Shown piece by piece: positions 161 through 62,467 of a stretch of 64,000 nucleotides of DNA (positions within the stretch are counted from its first letter, which is position 1; each line of letters begins with the position of its first letter). Origin of the DNA: Xanthostigma xanthostigma (Eukaryota > Arthropoda > Insecta > Raphidioptera > Raphidiidae). The notes under the pieces are model-generated. The model saw only the letters and a list, made by a program, of their open reading frames with translations, searched no databases and was not told the origin of the DNA. The stretch lies in assembly GCA_963575645.1 (NCBI GenBank), contig OY754467.1, forward strand, positions 54,097,108-54,161,107, given 5' to 3'. The translations under genes were made by a program, and so were the position numbers.

Positions 161-385
161 TTTTGACGTGATAACGTCTTATAAATTGATGAAACACCAG
201 CTGCACGCACGAAAAAGTGTAACGTTCCTAATGTTCCGCCTGACCCTGTGCGTGCAAGCGAGAGCGCAGTATGCTTCGGCCCAAGTTTGACAGCTACTAA
301 AATTTAGGTTATGTATTACGGAATACGTTTTCACATAAAACTATCGTCCGTAAACCGACTTTACAGACAACCAATTTTTTTTTTT
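161..385 (+). mobile_element. GATA-hairpin element, copy 1 (short form)
   Basis: This is a short copy of an unclassified repeat seen nine times in the window. It begins in a T run followed by GACGTGATAACGTC, a 5-bp stem with a GATA loop. It ends with CGTCCGTAAACCGACTT, CAGACAACCAA and another T run. Between the ends lies CCTGACCCTGTGCGTGC, followed by a segment starting AAGCGAGAGCGCAGT, which replaces the long middle found in other copies. The right-hand hairpin has decayed here (TTTTCACATAA). No coding sequence is present. The boundaries come from comparison with the other copies, and the T runs hide any target duplication. Confidence 0.75.
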
Positions 386-3275: not shown

Positions 3276-3485
3276 AAAAAATTGGTTGTCTGTAATGTCG
3301 GTTTACGGACGATAGTTTTACGTGATAACGTATTCCGCTCGAATATCCATATTTAATAATACATAACTGCGCTCTCGCTTGCACCCACATGGTCAGGCGG
3401 AACGTTACGGCGGAACGGAACGTTACACTTTTTCGTGCGTGCAGCTGGTGTTTCATCAATTTATAAGACGTTATCACGTCAAAAA
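3276..3485 (-). mobile_element. GATA-hairpin element, copy 2 (short form)
   Basis: On the minus strand it runs from GACGTGATAACGTC to CAGACAACCAAT, with both GATA-loop hairpins intact. The middle is the short type containing GCAAGCGAGAGCGCAG. It is bordered by A runs on the + strand. It sits just left of Helitron copy 2. Confidence 0.75.
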
Positions 3486-4893: not shown

Positions 4894-5921
4894 TCCCACC
4901 AAAAACATAAATGTGAAAAAAGAGGCCAAGTTCTCGTCAAAACCGCCTTTTGTTATCTTTAAAAAATTAATGTCGAAAATATGCCAAGTTCCTTGCCTAC
5001 ACGTTTATAAATTTCCACGCCAAACTTGGCAAGTTTTCGTTAAAGAAGTGATCATTATTGTGCCAAGTTTGGCGTGTAAATTTATAAACGTGTAGGCAAG
5101 GAACTTGGCATATTTACGAAATTAATTTTTTTTAAGATAACAAATGGCAGTGAAAAAAATATAAAGAAGTTATTAACATTTTTAGAAACTTCCGGACTAC
5201 TACAAAAAATATAATACACTACTAATATAAAATTATTACTTACCTATATAATTTATTATTGCAATTACCTGATATATACCATTGTACAATGTACAGTGCT
5301 AATAATCCTCGGGTTGAAGCACACTTTGTGTTGTTTGTTTTCAAAATAAAAAATTGGTTGTCTGTAAAGTCGGTTTACGGACGATAGTTTTACGTGATAA
5401 CGTATTCCGCTCGTATATCATATTTAATAACCACGCACAGGGTCAGGCAGAACGTTAATTTATTTATTAAAATTACTCACCACCTATAAAAATAATTGTT
5501 TTTTTTAACTTTCTTTCTTTCGTATTTATTTTAAGTCTCAAAGATTAACTGTCATAATATTTTGAAAACAATTGTTTCATTGTTTATATAAAATTCCAAA
5601 ACCTACTTACAATATTTAAGTATTTTCATACGTCAAAAAATTGATTTTTATAATGATAAAATTTGTAAGAAAACGATTTTTTCGAGAGATGAGACCTAGC
5701 TAAAACGATTTTTTGCCCCCCAAAATCCCTTTTCAGTAAATTTCATCCAAATCGTTAGGACCGTTTTCGAGAAAAGCACGCACAGGGTCAGGCGGAACGT
5801 TAGGAACGTTGCACTTTTTCGTGCATACAGCCGGTGTTTCATCAATTTATAAGACGTTATCACGTCAAAAAAAGGCAGTTTTGAACTTGGCCTTTTTTTC
5901 ACATTTATGTTTCTGGTGGGA
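4894..5921. mobile_element. TIR MITE (TCCCACC ends) interrupted by another element
   Basis: The left end TCCCACCAAAAACATAAATG and the right end (reverse complement TCCCACCAGAAACATAAATG) form TIRs of about 50 bp that continue through AGGCCAAGTTC. Inside is a second, stronger inverted repeat (about 4951-5031 and 5060-5143) built on TTGCCTACACGTTTATAAAT. The GATA-hairpin element at 5348-5873 has been inserted into it. Without that insert the element would be about 500 bp. Confidence 0.7.
5348..5873 (-). mobile_element. GATA-hairpin element, copy 3 (long form)
   Basis: On the minus strand it has both conserved ends and most of the long middle, including the GGGATTTTGGGGGGCAAAAA and TAGGTCTCATCTCTCG blocks. 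A second copy of the GTGCGTG segment sits next to the right end (about 5430-5455), so the middle has been rearranged. It is nested in the TCCCACC MITE. Confidence 0.75.
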
Positions 5922-6262: not shown

Positions 6263-6472
6263 GGCCTAGCACACATGAAGAGCGTTCAACGCGCGTTGGC
6301 CCAACGCGCGTTTACAATTTCTATACAATTGTATAGAACTGTTTATATGATAACGTGCGTTGACGCCGCGTTGAACGCGCGTTATCATATAAACAGTTCT
6401 ATACAATTGTATAGAAATTGTAAACGCGCGTTGGGCTAACGCGCGTTGAACGCCTCTCATATAAACTAGGCC
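6263..6472. mobile_element. near-perfect palindromic MITE flanked by TTAA/TTAT
   Basis: GGCCTAG begins the left arm and CTAGGCC closes the right arm. The arms are about 95 bp each and almost identical, containing TTCAACGCGCGTT and TATACAATTGTATAGAA. The left flank is TTAA and the right is TTAT, so a TTAA target is possible with one later change. It has no coding capacity. Confidence 0.7.
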
Positions 6473-6494: not shown

Positions 6495-6763
6495 TATAAT
6501 ACGCGCCACGAATCTAAAAGGCTCGGAAGTTAGATGCGAATGCGGGCTTGCGTTTGTACAGTCTGTTGAAAAACTGCAAACTCGCAATTCAACAAAACTA
6601 AAATAACAACTTGACAATAGCGTACTCGACTGTACTTTAAAGCAGGAAAGCGACAAGTGACAAAGGCAACGAGCGATCACGGCCAATCACCGACGAGCGC
6701 ACGTTCTTGCGACGCTGTTTGTGACAAACTTCCGTACCTTTTAGATCCGTGGCGCGTATTATA
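6495..6763. mobile_element. TIR MITE (ATACGCGCCACG family), complete copy
   Basis: The ends TATAATACGCGCCACG and CGTGGCGCGTATTATA form TIRs that continue through ATCTAAAAGG and GGAAGTT to about 38 bp. Related copies lie at 702, 27691 and 63705. The copies at 27691 and 63705 carry a GTAGCTGGGAGGTGGTGGGA block that this one lacks. The boundary and the target duplication (TA or TATA) cannot be separated by eye. The superfamily was not assigned. Confidence 0.75.
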
Positions 6764-7552
6764 CCAAAAATCGGGTCGTGTCGGGGACATGACAAGCAAT
6801 TTGACTAATACTCTACCCTGATGTTGAACTGTGGAAAGAATAAAGGAGACTAATTATATAAAGTAATTCGTTAACTGTCGAATGGTACCTACTACTCAAA
6901 ATTTGCCTACCTTATCTTAATGTCCTAAAATTCCTTCACTCGCCCATTGGTATTGATTAAGTGGGTAAGTTTAAAAATGTAGAAAATAACGGGAGGTGTG
7001 ATGGAAAATAGTAAAGGTGCGAATGGCGTCTGGTTAAGACATTATAAGTCGAGAAACGGACTTTAGGAGATTGATGCGTTACAGTCCCAATCAAAAGTAA
7101 GTCGAATTCTAAATGGGAACTTTTATAGTTTATAAGTCGATCATACTAATAAATTATTGTCATAAAGGCATAAATAAATATTTTTTTTTTAATTTTAATT
7201 AATTATTTCAGTACTTTATATTTAATGGACTAACTTTGGAATTTTTTGTACAAAGTTAGGTTAAAAAAAATAAATTTATCTAAATATCTGTAGTTACATA
7301 TTTTTTGCAGTAAATAATTAAAAAAAGAAATTAGAAGTAATAAAAATTAAAATTAAATCATTGAAAAGTTGAAAATTCACAAAATTGTTAAAATTGTCAA
7401 GAATAAAAGTCCACAATCGAAAGTGCTAAGGTTTAATAATTTTTTTTATTGATTAAAAGTCTCCTAATTAAATTGGAAAAAATATTAAAATATGCGTAAG
7501 ACATCGATGCTTTACATAGTGAGTTTTCGGAACTGCTGACATTATTTGGTTA

Positions 7553-9258: not shown

Positions 9259-9901
9259 TTTTTTGACGTGATAACGTCTTATAAATTGATGAATCACCAA
9301 TCTTATAAATTGATAAAACACCGGCTGCATGCACGAAAAAGTGTAACGTTCCTAACGTAACGTTCCTAACGTTCCTAACGTAACGTTCCTAACGTTCGTA
9401 ACGCGTAACGTTCCGCCTGACCCTGTGCGTGCTTTTCTCGAAAACGGCCCTAACGATTTGGATGAAATTTACTGAAAAGGGATTTTGGGGGGCAAAAAAT
9501 CGTTTTAGCTAGGTCTCATCTCTCGAAAAAATCGTTTTCTTACAAATTTTATCATTATAAAAATCAATTTTTTGACGTATGAAAATACTTAAATATTGTA
9601 AGTAGGTTTTGGAATTTTATATTATAAACAGTGAAACAATTGTTTTATAAATATTATGACAGCTAATCTTTGAGACTTAAAATAAAAATACGAAAGAAAG
9701 AAAGTTAAAAAAAACAATTATATTATATGGTGAGTAATTTAAATAAATAAAATTAACCTAAATTTGAAGCGAAAGATGCAATATCATAGATTCGAATTAT
9801 TATAATTATTATATGTAGAATTTAGGTTATGTATTACGGAATACGTTATCACGTAAAACTATCGTCCGTAAACCGACTTTACAGACAACCAATTTTTTTT
9901 T
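9259..9901 (+). mobile_element. GATA-hairpin element, copy 4 (full-length type)
   Basis: This is one of the three best long copies. After the left hairpin there is a duplicated CTTATAAATTGAT segment, then an expanded ACGTTCCTA run (about 9345-9410). The conserved CCTGACCCTGTGCGTGC comes next, then the long middle with AAAGGGATTTTGGGGGGC, then the right hairpin ATACGTTATCACGTA and the closing ACAACCAA plus T run. I see no open reading frame over the length and no Pol III boxes. Confidence 0.8.
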
Positions 9902-14577: not shown

Positions 14578-15197
14578 ACATATTTTACCATTCCAACCCA
14601 CAAGTGGGGAATGTAACTAGTTTAGGTCGAAAATCACTTTTCAAGAATTTTACAATATCTTTCCGTTTTGAGGTCCCCTGAATCCAAAAAACATATTTTT
14701 GAAAAATCTCTGTGCGTCTGTTTGTCTGTGAACACGATACAGGTCAAACGGATGAACGGATTGAAACCAAATTTTGGGAGGATGTTTGGTATGCAAATAT
14801 GAAGAGCCCTATTGTTTTTGGGGAAAGTCGGCGCATGCGCAGAAGATATATATGCTAAAAAGGTGTTTTTTATATAATAATGGTATACTTTTCATAACGG
14901 ATTATTATTCTATTTATTTTTTCAAGAACGTTTTGTTGAAAAATTTTTTTCCTAAACTTTATAGTTTCGGAAATATTTTGAAAATAAAAAAAAATCAATC
15001 GCTCTTTTGTTTTATGGATCTGTCAGAAATAAACAGTTCGGCATGCTTTGATTAATGTTTACATGACGTGGAATATTATTATGTAGGTAACCATGGCAAC
15101 GAATAGTTAATATCATATTGAATACTAGCGATTACCCGCGTCACCTCACACGATATCAAAAATTTTATTTTCTTTATTATATAATCAAATGTCAACA

Positions 15198-15771
15198 TTT
15201 TGACGTGATAACGTCTTATAAATTGATGAATCACCAATCTTATAAATTGATGAAACACCGGCTGCATGCACGAAAAAGTGTAACGTTCCTAACGTTCCGC
15301 CTGACCCTGTGCGTGCTTTTCTCGAAAACGGCCCTAACTATTTGGATGAAATTTACTGAAAAGGGATTTTGGGGGGCAAAAAATCGTTTTAGCTAGGTCT
15401 CATCTCTCGAAAAAATCGTTTTCATACAAATTTTATAAATCAATTTTTTGACGTATGAAAATACTTAAATATTGTAAGTAGGTTTTGGAATTTTATATAA
15501 ACAATGAAACAATTGTTTTCAAAATATTATGACAGTTAATCTTTGAGACTTAAAATAAATACGAAAGAACGAAAGCTAAAAAAAACAATTATATTATAGG
15601 TGGTGAGTAATTTTAATAAATAAAATTAACCTAAATTTGAAGCGAAATATGCAATATCATAGATTCGAATTATTATAATTATTATATAAATTTAGGTTAT
15701 GTATTACGGAATACGTTATCACGTAAAACTATTGTCCGTAAACCACTTTACAGACAACCAATTTTTTTTTT
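15198..15771 (+). mobile_element. GATA-hairpin element, copy 5 (full-length type)
   Basis: It has the left hairpin, the duplicated TTATAAATTGATGA segment, one GTAACGTTCCTAACGTTCC, the long middle and the right hairpin with ACAACCAA plus T run. It is close to copies 4 and 7 along its whole length. It inserted at ACATTTT. Confidence 0.8.
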
Positions 15772-15867
15772 GAAGTTGGAATGGTCCCGTCGCCCAATTG
15801 GCTGGAATTTTTTTCTTAAGTTGAGGTAATTCCTAAACCGCGTGACAATTATCCTAGCGTCTGCGGG

Positions 15868-16296
15868 ATGCGTTACTCAGAGTGTCGGCTTCATTCGTAT
15901 GTCTGTCTTCACGATTGCGTTGAGGTTTACCCTTCATCAGCAGGCCATATATCTATCGCAGGACATCACTGTCAGTGCAGCGGCTTTACTACGCTAGGAT
16001 ATTGTGTTTGGCGCCCGCCACCTCACAGTATACTCTCCGTTGCACGGCGAAGTGGCGAGGATCTGACGTTAAACGCGACATTAGTTTGTGGCGTCACGTG
16101 CGCGCTCTTATTCCTCGTTAGCGCCATTTTTATGTACCTACCGTCGCCCGTTCTCCTGAAGGATGAACAAGCATCCTGTAACCTCGTACAGAGACTTCGA
16201 CAAAATATGTGCCTATACAGGATATATTGGCTTCCAATGCCAAATCAACATTTTCACAGTCAACACTCAACGCTGAACCATTTTCGGCTTAATTGA
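15868..16296 (+). CDS. unrecognised open frame, 142 codons (doubtful)
   Basis: This frame lies in the only GC-richer part of the composite region and reads from ATG to a stop just before GATA-hairpin copy 6. The product has a cysteine-rich first half (residues 6-75), one hydrophobic stretch (about residues 70-92: VCGVTCALLFLVSAIFMYL) that could be a membrane segment, and a His/Asn-rich tail. I recognise no domain, no signal peptide and no splice sites. It may be chance, or host sequence captured by a transposon. Confidence 0.2.
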   Translation: MRYSECRLHSYVCLHDCVEVYPSSAGHISIAGHHCQCSGFTTLGYCVWRPPPHSILSVARRSGEDLTLNATLVCGVTCALLFLVSAIFMYLPSPVLLKDEQASCNLVQRLRQNMCLYRIYWLPMPNQHFHSQHSTLNHFRLN

Positions 16297-16299
16297 AGA

Positions 16300-16465
16300 T
16301 TTTTTGACGTGATAACGTCTTATAAATTGATGAAACACCGGCTGCATGCACGAAAAAGTGTCACGTTCCGAAATGTGTCACGTTCCGCCTGACCTTCGAG
16401 CGGAATACGTTATCACGTAAAACTATCGTCCGTAAACCGACTTTACAGACAACCAATTTTTTTTT
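16300..16465 (+). mobile_element. GATA-hairpin element, copy 6 (minimal form, 166 bp)
   Basis: The left end through GTCACGTTCCGCCTGACC joins directly to the right end starting TTCGAGCGGAATACG. Only the two hairpin-bearing ends remain, with no middle. This is the smallest copy and shows what is kept when the middle is lost. Confidence 0.8.
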
Positions 16466-37872: not shown

Positions 37873-38030
37873 AATAGTTACTTCTTACCACAACAGTTTT
37901 ATTAGAGGATGTGCATTTCGGGAGCTAAGCTCTCATCTTCAGCAAACACTAAACTCATTAGAGAACATAATTATAGCTTCCGAAATGTACATCAGCTAAT
38001 AAAACTGTTGTGGTAAGGAGTAACTATTTT
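37873..38030. repeat. foldback repeat (TTACCACAACAGTTTTATTAG)
   Basis: Arms of about 33 bp, AATAGTTACTTCTTACCACA with ACAGTTTTATTAG, return inverted as CTAATAAAACTGTTGTGGTA then AGGAGTAACTATT. Inside, GCATTTCGGGAGCTAAGCTC then TCATCTTCAG is another form of the hammerhead-like motif on the minus strand. A half copy at 55695-56230 is split by a GATA-hairpin element. Confidence 0.7.
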
Positions 38031-53376: not shown

Positions 53377-53997
53377 AAAAATTGGTTGTCTGTAAAGTCG
53401 GTTTACGGACGATAGTTTTACGTGATAACGTATTCCGTAATACATAACCTAAATTCTACATATAATAATTATAATAATTCGAATCTATGATATTGCATCT
53501 TTCGCTTCAAATTTAGGTTAATTTTATTTATTAAATTACTCACCACCTATAAAAATAATTTTTTTTATTAACTTTCTTTCATTCGTATTTATTTAAGTCT
53601 CAAAGATTAACTGTCATAATATTTAGAAAACAATTGTTTTATTGTTTAAGTATATAAAATTCCAAAACCTACTTACAATATTTAAGTATTTTCATACGTC
53701 AAAAAATTGATTTTTATAATGATAAAATTTGTAAGAAAACGATTTTTTCGAGAGATGAGACCTAGCTAAAACGATGTTTTGCCCCCCAAAATCCCTTTTC
53801 AGTAAATTTCATCCAAATCGTTAGGGCCGTTTTCGAGAAAAGCACGCACAGGGTCAGGCGGAACGTTACGCGTTACGCGTTACGAACGTTAGGAACGTTA
53901 CGTTAGGAACGTTACACTTTTTCGTGCATGCAGCCGGTGTTTTATCAATTTATAAGATTGATGATTCATCAATTTATAAGACGTTATCACGTCAAAA
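53377..53997 (-). mobile_element. GATA-hairpin element, copy 7 (full-length type)
   Basis: All blocks of the long form are present in minus orientation, including the duplicated TTTATAAG segment and an expanded GTTACGCGTTACG run near 53868-53910. It is bordered by AAAA on both sides. Confidence 0.8.
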
Positions 53998-55694: not shown

Positions 55695-56230
55695 CATCTC
55701 ATGAGAGCATAGCTCCCGAAATGTACATCCGCTAATAAAACTGTTATAGTAAGAAGTAACCATTCTTTATTTTTGACGTGATAACGTCTTATAAATTGAT
55801 GAAACACCGGCTGCACGCACGAAAAAGAGTAACGTTCCGCAAGCGAGAGCGCGATATAATTAGCGATAGTCTCTCTCTTCTCGCGTGACGTCAGAGAGTA
55901 GTGTGCGTTCAACATTTTTTTCGGCTGTTCCAGCGATAGCTACATCTGACAGATGGCCTAGATAAATTATACGGTTTGTTAACAAATATATAATATATAT
56001 ATAGGTACATTCTTTTAAATGTCTTTTATAATTGCTTAAAAATATGTATTTTGCTTTGGTTGATCAAATTATTAGTCGGTAAAAATATAGTTTGACAGCT
56101 ACTAAAATTTAGGTTGTGTATTATTAAATATGATATTTGCGCGGAATACGTTATCACGTAAAACTATCGTCCGTAAACCGACTTTACAGACAACCAATTT
56201 TTTAATTTTGTTTCAACCAGTCTCTTAATA
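55695..56230. repeat. half foldback repeat interrupted by GATA-hairpin copy 8
   Basis: CTCCCGAAATGTACATCCGC, TAATAAAACTGTTATAGTAA and GAAGTAACCATTCTTTATTT match the right half of the foldback at 37873-38030. After the inserted element the match resumes with AATTTTGTTTCAACCAG (compare TTTTTGTTTCAACCAAG at about 38034). This gives an uninterrupted reference for the insertion site. Confidence 0.7.
55771..56203 (+). mobile_element. GATA-hairpin element, copy 8 (alternative middle)
   Basis: Conserved left end through GAAAAAGAGTAACGTTCCGC, then GCAAGCGAGAGCGC and a middle unlike the long form (TCTCGCGTGACGTCAGAGAG, a dinucleotide AT run). It then has TTTGACAGCTACTAAAATTT, shared with copy 1, and the conserved right end with the hairpin. 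Confidence 0.8.
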
Positions 56231-61802: not shown

Positions 61803-62467
61803 AAAAAAAAATTGGTTGTCTGTAAAGTCGGTTTACGGACGATAGTTTTACGTGATAACGTATTCCGTAATACATAACCTAAACCTCCCAAAATTTGGTT
61901 TCAATCCGCTTATCCTTGGTGTCGGAATGATAAGAAATGTCAAAAGTGACGTTTGCAACTGTCAAAGTATTATGTTCTAATAATAATTAGTTATTCCAAT
62001 ACTTAACTTAGAAGGCGTTGCATTTCACAAAATACTAATGTAATTAATTAAACATTAGAAATGCAGCCGTTTTCATGTTAAGACAAGACATACGTTATTT
62101 TCTAATTTCCATGTACGGCAAACAAAGACAACCGACCGCGTCGCGCCATGCATTAGACAACATTGCATTTATACAGCTATTTTTCTATATAAATTTGTAT
62201 AAAAAAACTGTTTAGGCAAATTCTGTTATACGAAATCTATGTAAAATGTTCTCCTCTTTCGTTTAAGACTGGTTTCAAACCGATCTGATTTAAATTGAGC
62301 GAGAAATTAGCAAAAAGCACGCACAGGGTCAGGCGGAACGTTACGCGTTACGAACGTTAGGAACGTTAGGATTTAGGAACGTTACACTTTTTCGTGCATG
62401 CAGCCGGTGTTTTATCAATTTATAAGATTGGTTATTCATCAATTTATAAGACGTTATCACGTCAAAA
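61803..62467 (-). mobile_element. GATA-hairpin element, copy 9 (foreign middle)
   Basis: Both conserved ends are intact in minus orientation. Between them the usual middle is replaced by about 430 bp beginning (on the + strand) CCTCCCAAAATTTGGTTTCA, which matches the inverse of 14752-14780 in the composite region. The element therefore has normal ends with borrowed contents. Confidence 0.7.

Follow-up and report, generated by a model that had tools for sequence, protein, structure and literature searches.

A very abundant repeat family of Xanthostigma xanthostigma with the end anatomy, T-run target and coding partner of Helentron derivatives

The window analysed here, a stretch of 64,000 nucleotides (64 kb) of DNA from Xanthostigma xanthostigma, contains nine copies of a short repeat. 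All nine had been reported in an original prediction made from the sequence alone, and all (9/9) were located at the positions and with the ends given there. The copy under study occupies positions 9265..9892 on the plus strand (628 bp as a core without its flanking T-runs), and its insertion borders are formed by a T-run on the left (9259..9264) and a second T-run on the right (9893..9901). The other plus-strand copies are found at 165..374 (210 bp), 15202..15761 (560 bp), 16306..16456 (151 bp, the shortest in the window) and 55775..56197 (423 bp). The minus-strand copies lie at 3282..3480 (199 bp), 5354..5866 (513 bp, in a poly-T that borders another multicopy repeat), 53382..53993 (612 bp) and 61812..62463 (652 bp), and lengths in the window thus range from 151 to 652 bp.

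The left end of the copy under study is formed by the palindromic subTIR GACGT-GATA-ACGTC (9265..9278, plus strand), with a 12-bp shared core, ACGTGATAACGT, and the right side carries a second palindromic subTIR, TACGT-TATC-ACGTA (9842..9855, plus strand), which ends 38 bp before the CAA/T-run border. The core of the right subTIR (9843-9854) and the left core are reverse complements of each other, and the unit ACGTGATAACGT is itself palindromic except for its GATA loop. The opposed GATA and TATC loops belong to a single inverted repeat with two arms. Its left arm is terminal, separated from the border by one base and the Ts, and its right arm is subterminal, 38 bp plus Ts from the border. The original prediction had placed the right palindrome about 45 bp inside the end and had described the very termini of the copies as free of inverted repeats; the second of these statements is confirmed.

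The sequence GACGTGATAACGTC stands at the left border behind 4 to 11 T in all nine window copies, and the exact right palindrome TACGTTATCACGTA is present in eight of them. In the remaining copy (165..374, listed at 161 in the original prediction) the right palindrome is mutated and reads ATGTGAAAACGT on the minus strand. The right ends of the window copies read ...ACAGACAACCAA followed by the T-run. Sequence shared at high identity extends over approximately 29 to 66 bp on the left and over 50 bp or slightly more on the right, and the earlier estimate of about 60 bp per end is therefore roughly right. Between the right palindrome and the T-run sits a feature absent from the original prediction, a 3' stem-loop with one mismatch (GTCCGTAAA-CCGAC-TTTACAGAC; 9864..9886, plus strand, 6 nt before the T-run), which folds as a 3+5 bp stem with an energy that by itself is not significant (z -0.9). 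The stem is unaltered in eight of the nine window copies, with a single change in the ninth (3282..3480).

The window also holds a long palindrome at 6299-6436, whose 57-bp arms (6299-6355 and 6380-6436) match perfectly and enclose a centre of 24 bp; it is probably a separate small inverted-repeat element. It contains ATATGATAACGT, which is two mismatches away from the repeat of the family described here, a resemblance that is probably due to chance.

In the 623-Mb host genome, the left 14-mer has 24,546 exact occurrences, compared with one for the reversed control and a chance expectation of about 4 (33% G+C assumed), a count far above chance. TTTT precedes 22,800 of these 24,546 exact left ends, and directly follows 20,316 of the 21,044 exact occurrences of the right 18-mer GACTTTACAGACAACCAA. 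Exact left and right ends were paired on sequence C1, from listings limited to the first 100 places for either end. Among the places listed, the 92 plus-strand left ends gave 69 pairs, and 23 of them, together with 6 of the 75 right ends, had no counterpart. In 68 of the pairs the distance from end to end, taken from the end positions alone, is 174 to 1,217 bp. A 9,463-bp pair was considered as a long copy and rejected, as its sequence consists of two separate copies that enclose a third one on the opposite strand.

The original prediction had proposed a comparison of filled and empty sites, and this comparison identifies the T-run as the target for two window copies. The flanks of ten copies were compared with a limited set of host-genome sequence, and matches spanning the junction were found for two of them. 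The host repeat around copy 15202..15761 (15052-15201 with 15772-15911) is very abundant, with 2,719 first-look candidates, of which 40 were scored. All 40 matches listed for the joined flanks (40 scored of the 2,719 candidates) span the junction, with 94-95% identity. The empty site reads CAACA-TTTTT-GAAGTTGG in all six loci that were read, and the filled site reads CAACA-T4-[element]-T10-GAAGTTGG; at the junction of two paralogues in L033, which are more diverged, nine Ts and TTTCT are found. For copy 55775..56197, the junction is spanned by 38 matches besides the site itself. Three of its empty sites were read and contain 4, 6 and 7 Ts, as against T5-[element]-T6 in the filled site; point differences aside, nothing else is duplicated or lost. 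A fourth empty site, at window position 37973, has diverged further and shows a small gap close by. The host repeat around this copy has inverted arms, and two opposite-strand matches to the left flank only (L057 and L058), which continue differently, were not counted.

The T-run empty sites of these two copies indicate that insertion took place within the T-run. At both sites the element lies inside a short T-run with no target duplication except possibly of T alone, a T-only duplication being indistinguishable from none in such a run. Genome searches with the joined flanks gave no spanning match for copy 9265..9892 or for copy 5354..5866. In the case of the latter, 38 matches besides its own site share the right flank only, from the T-run on, and the two that were read have a T-run and other DNA at that place. 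The right flank of copy 16306..16456 matches repeats only from the T-run on and the left side differs, and it was therefore not counted as an empty site.

The position of the right arm and the empty sites bear directly on the ordinary TIR MITE that the original prediction had named as its own refutation. In this reading, taken up here with inverted repeats of 12 bp, the repeat would be a MITE of a TIR DNA transposon and would be moved by a DDE transposase. The two palindromes are indeed inverted repeats of each other, and many MITEs are short and numerous. However, the right repeat is located 38 bp plus Ts inside the end, the empty sites lack any duplication beyond T, and the coding partner with the same ends that is described below encodes a Rep/PIF1 protein. 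The element does not have terminal inverted repeats at both borders, and no fixed-length duplication was found at the two sites, a duplication of T alone being possible. The DDE-type TIR MITE is rejected on the subterminal position of its right repeat and on the lack of any non-T duplication at the two empty sites, and we consider it scarcely credible. A canonical Helitron, which has no subTIRs and inserts between A and T (partly after PMC4067079), is rejected on the T-run insertion and the subTIRs. Canonical Helitrons belong to the same rolling-circle Rep/helicase group, and differ from the present family in these two respects.

A coding partner was sought among the 89 Helitron_like_N matches listed across the genome, and the flanks of five Helentron-type matches were examined. 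An element of 7,127 bp at C5:10936346-10943472, on the minus strand, has the left end (10943472) and the right end (10936346) of the family, both adjoining T-runs. It shares the 12-bp subTIR core with the window copies and carries the identical letters of the 3' stem-loop. Its 1,162-aa open frame matches Helitron_like_N (6.2e-26) and DUF6570 (1.9e-16), and a PIF1 helicase fragment (2.5e-16) is situated behind this Rep frame. The HUH motif and the two tyrosines (Y-x3-Y) of the Rep are invariant with respect to two other Helentrons of the host genome. A further remnant aligns in pairwise comparison with the endonuclease regions of those two Helentrons (E 2e-7 and 3e-5) and matches no Pfam family at E up to 0.1; judged from these alignments, it is probably an incomplete endonuclease remnant. 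In the C5 copy most of the helicase is missing, as is part of the endonuclease, and with both of these incomplete the copy constitutes a broken relative of the mover; as an autonomous Helentron, with complete Rep, helicase and endonuclease, it was rejected. A long copy of the kind that the original prediction had proposed to look for between the same ends exists, with a Rep and a partial PIF1, in a form that is broken.

The coding content of this element also bears on the second reading offered by the original prediction, in which a site-specific recombinase (tyrosine or serine) binds the opposed hairpins. The palindromes do resemble recombinase sites, an idea put forward in that prediction. 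The sense strand of the C5 region has nine frames of at least 60 aa, one of them outside the element, and no recombinase gene was found in the three that were scanned against Pfam. Against such an enzyme, the insertion flanks differ and have only a T-run in common, the ends were found to enclose only one coding element, a Rep/helicase Helentron, and the palindromes are accounted for by known Helentron anatomy. We attach almost no weight to a recombinase. Of the two readings originally offered, a Helentron with T-T insertion agrees with the anatomy, the empty sites and the C5 partner, and the hairpin-binding recombinase is without support here.

The relationship between the C5 element and the short copies is illustrated by a 245-bp copy, found in L040 and nested inside the C5 element. 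It corresponds to partner bases 1-170 (94% identity), followed by 5 nt and then by bases 7058-7127 (the last 70 bp, 98.6%), and on this alignment it is a plain internal-deletion derivative of the C5 element. The last 50 bp of the partner are matched at 50/50 positions in six window copies and at 48 and 49 of 50 in two, and the ninth copy is 96% identical with a 1-bp gap and a substitution. Over the last 60 positions, ungapped identity to the partner is 50 to 53 of 60 in eight of the nine window copies; copy 15202..15761 gives 27/60 ungapped, and 96% over 50 bp with a 1-bp gap. According to excerpts of Thomas et al. (2014; PMC4067079), members of a family share an identical subTIR of at least 11 bp, and members of a subfamily have 80% identity over the last 60 bp. 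By these rules, the 12-bp subTIR unites the window copies with the C5 element in one family, and eight of the nine copies fall into its subfamily in the ungapped comparison.

A different arrangement has to be weighed, in which the C5 Rep gene is not the partner at all, an unrelated Helentron lies by chance between two solo ends, and the family is moved by another Helentron of the genome. In its favour, a single such copy was found and it is broken, and the genome contains other Helentrons with full-length open frames. However, the order and orientation of the ends are right relative to the Rep, both ends touch T-runs, and the 245-bp copy shares 170 bp of the left and 70 bp of the right of the partner. 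In addition, the flanks of four other Helentrons, perhaps too short for the purpose, contain no end of this type with up to two mismatches. We regard a chance arrangement of solo ends as very unlikely, and the C5 element is taken below as the coding partner of the family. A genome search with its Rep, in which 40 of 57 candidates were scored, gave no second close copy; in the scored set, the other long matches are 30-33% identical to the C5 Rep, and the best short matches are 42% (374 aa, with stops) and 53% (59 aa) identical.

Several other mobile elements were encountered in the course of the analysis. The window segment 48242-48739 contains inner repeats around CGTTATAAAGAG and has 95% identity to a stretch of approximately 510 bp within the C5 Helentron (6495-7005); it is probably another mobile element nested in the partner. 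Among Helitrons, the 30 loci L001-L030 (3.5 kb each) contain no exact end of the type described here. The host genome has many open frames of about 1,555 aa that contain Helitron_like_N. In a 2-kb stretch around the Rep domain, the copies L017, L020, L021, L025, L027, L028 and L030 show 0-2 base differences from L017, in a comparison that was entered with 14 loci and in which seven opposite-strand loci were not properly compared. Judged from their sequences, the near-identity and the 1,555-aa frames of the L017-type Helitrons suggest very recent movement. Two other Helentrons, L031 and L032, have single open frames of 2,372 and 2,216 aa; a ubiquitin hydrolase domain (UCH, 1.1e-10) closes L031, and L032 has only a weak Ulp1-like match near its start (Peptidase_C48, E 0.05). 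The right end of one of the four other Helentrons whose flanks were examined, defined by comparing its C2 and C3 copies, consists of a hairpin, GACCGG and a T-run, and is alike in general plan.

Taken together, the anatomy of the ends, the empty sites and the coding partner with the same ends assign the repeat to the Helentron type. It is almost certain that the nine copies are HINEs, non-autonomous and internally deleted derivatives of a Helentron, a rolling-circle transposon of the Helitron group. The description of the family as unclassified, as given in the original prediction, is wrong at the level of the class.

The HINEs of the mite Metaseiulus occidentalis, as described in excerpts of Thomas et al. 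(2014; PMC4067079), have palindromic subTIRs of 12-15 bp, placed 2-4 nt inside the 5' end and 38-60 bp inside the 3' end. They also have a palindrome at a distance of 8-35 bp from the 3' end, and their targets are T-rich; the target site of HINEs is unmodified and the number of Ts variable. The present family fits this description in its 12-bp core, which sits at the 5' border and again 38 bp plus Ts inside the 3' border, in its 3' stem-loop (9864-9886, 6 nt plus the T-run from the terminus, with a z of only -0.9), in the T-run insertion of two window copies with paralogous empty sites, and in the ends shared with a Rep/PIF1 partner, the C5 element, whose PIF1 is partial. In the same excerpts, the HINE-Mo families are alike in the size and placement of the palindromic subTIRs, the 3' palindrome, the T-rich unmodified target and the lack of coding capacity, a likeness drawn from the description of these families. 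Palindromic subTIRs are also described there for Helentrons of Culex, Drosophila ananassae and D. willistoni, which resemble the present family in their T-rich insertion and variable border Ts, in having a Rep/helicase/endonuclease partner, and in being outnumbered by their HINEs (PMC4067079). These Helentrons have named partners in that account, whereas the sole partner found here is broken. The DINE-1/INE-1 elements of Drosophila are likewise very abundant non-autonomous Helentron derivatives with subTIRs and a 3' stem-loop, but their subTIRs, as far as described in the excerpts, are not themselves palindromic (PMC4067079). A literature search for the letters of the motifs found no paper. 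The family is ordinary in its design and very common in its host genome, and belongs to the known Helentron/HINE group; it may already bear a name in Repbase or Dfam.

The ends of the copies, their T-run target, the coding type of the partner and the origin of one HINE by internal deletion are read directly. The steps of movement can be proposed from them and from what is known of the Helitron/Helentron group. The palindromic 5' subTIR, its inverted copy and the 3' stem-loop before the T-run should be the signals recognised by the transposase, and a full-length partner would supply the Rep-helicase-endonuclease in trans. By analogy with the group, the Rep would nick at the border between the 5' Ts and the subTIR, and the helicase would unwind the element while one strand is copied or peeled off up to the 3' stem-loop, where termination is anticipated. 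The single strand would then be inserted between T and T in a T-run, with the other target bases unduplicated, strand transfer again being modelled on the group. One could further imagine that the family's own Helentron is nearly extinct, with one broken copy left, and that the spread of the HINEs, past or present, to more than 20,000 exact ends per side has relied on a different Helentron lineage with a Rep of about 33% identity that recognises nothing but the subTIR and the 3' stem-loop; we consider this improbable.

The known transposon classes are unchanged by this family. Its class and its partner matter for genome annotation; without them, tens of thousands of copies would be labelled as MITEs or as unknown. 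The family adds another case of a broken Helentron beside very many passengers, which can serve for dating and for the question of what is recognised by Helentron proteins.
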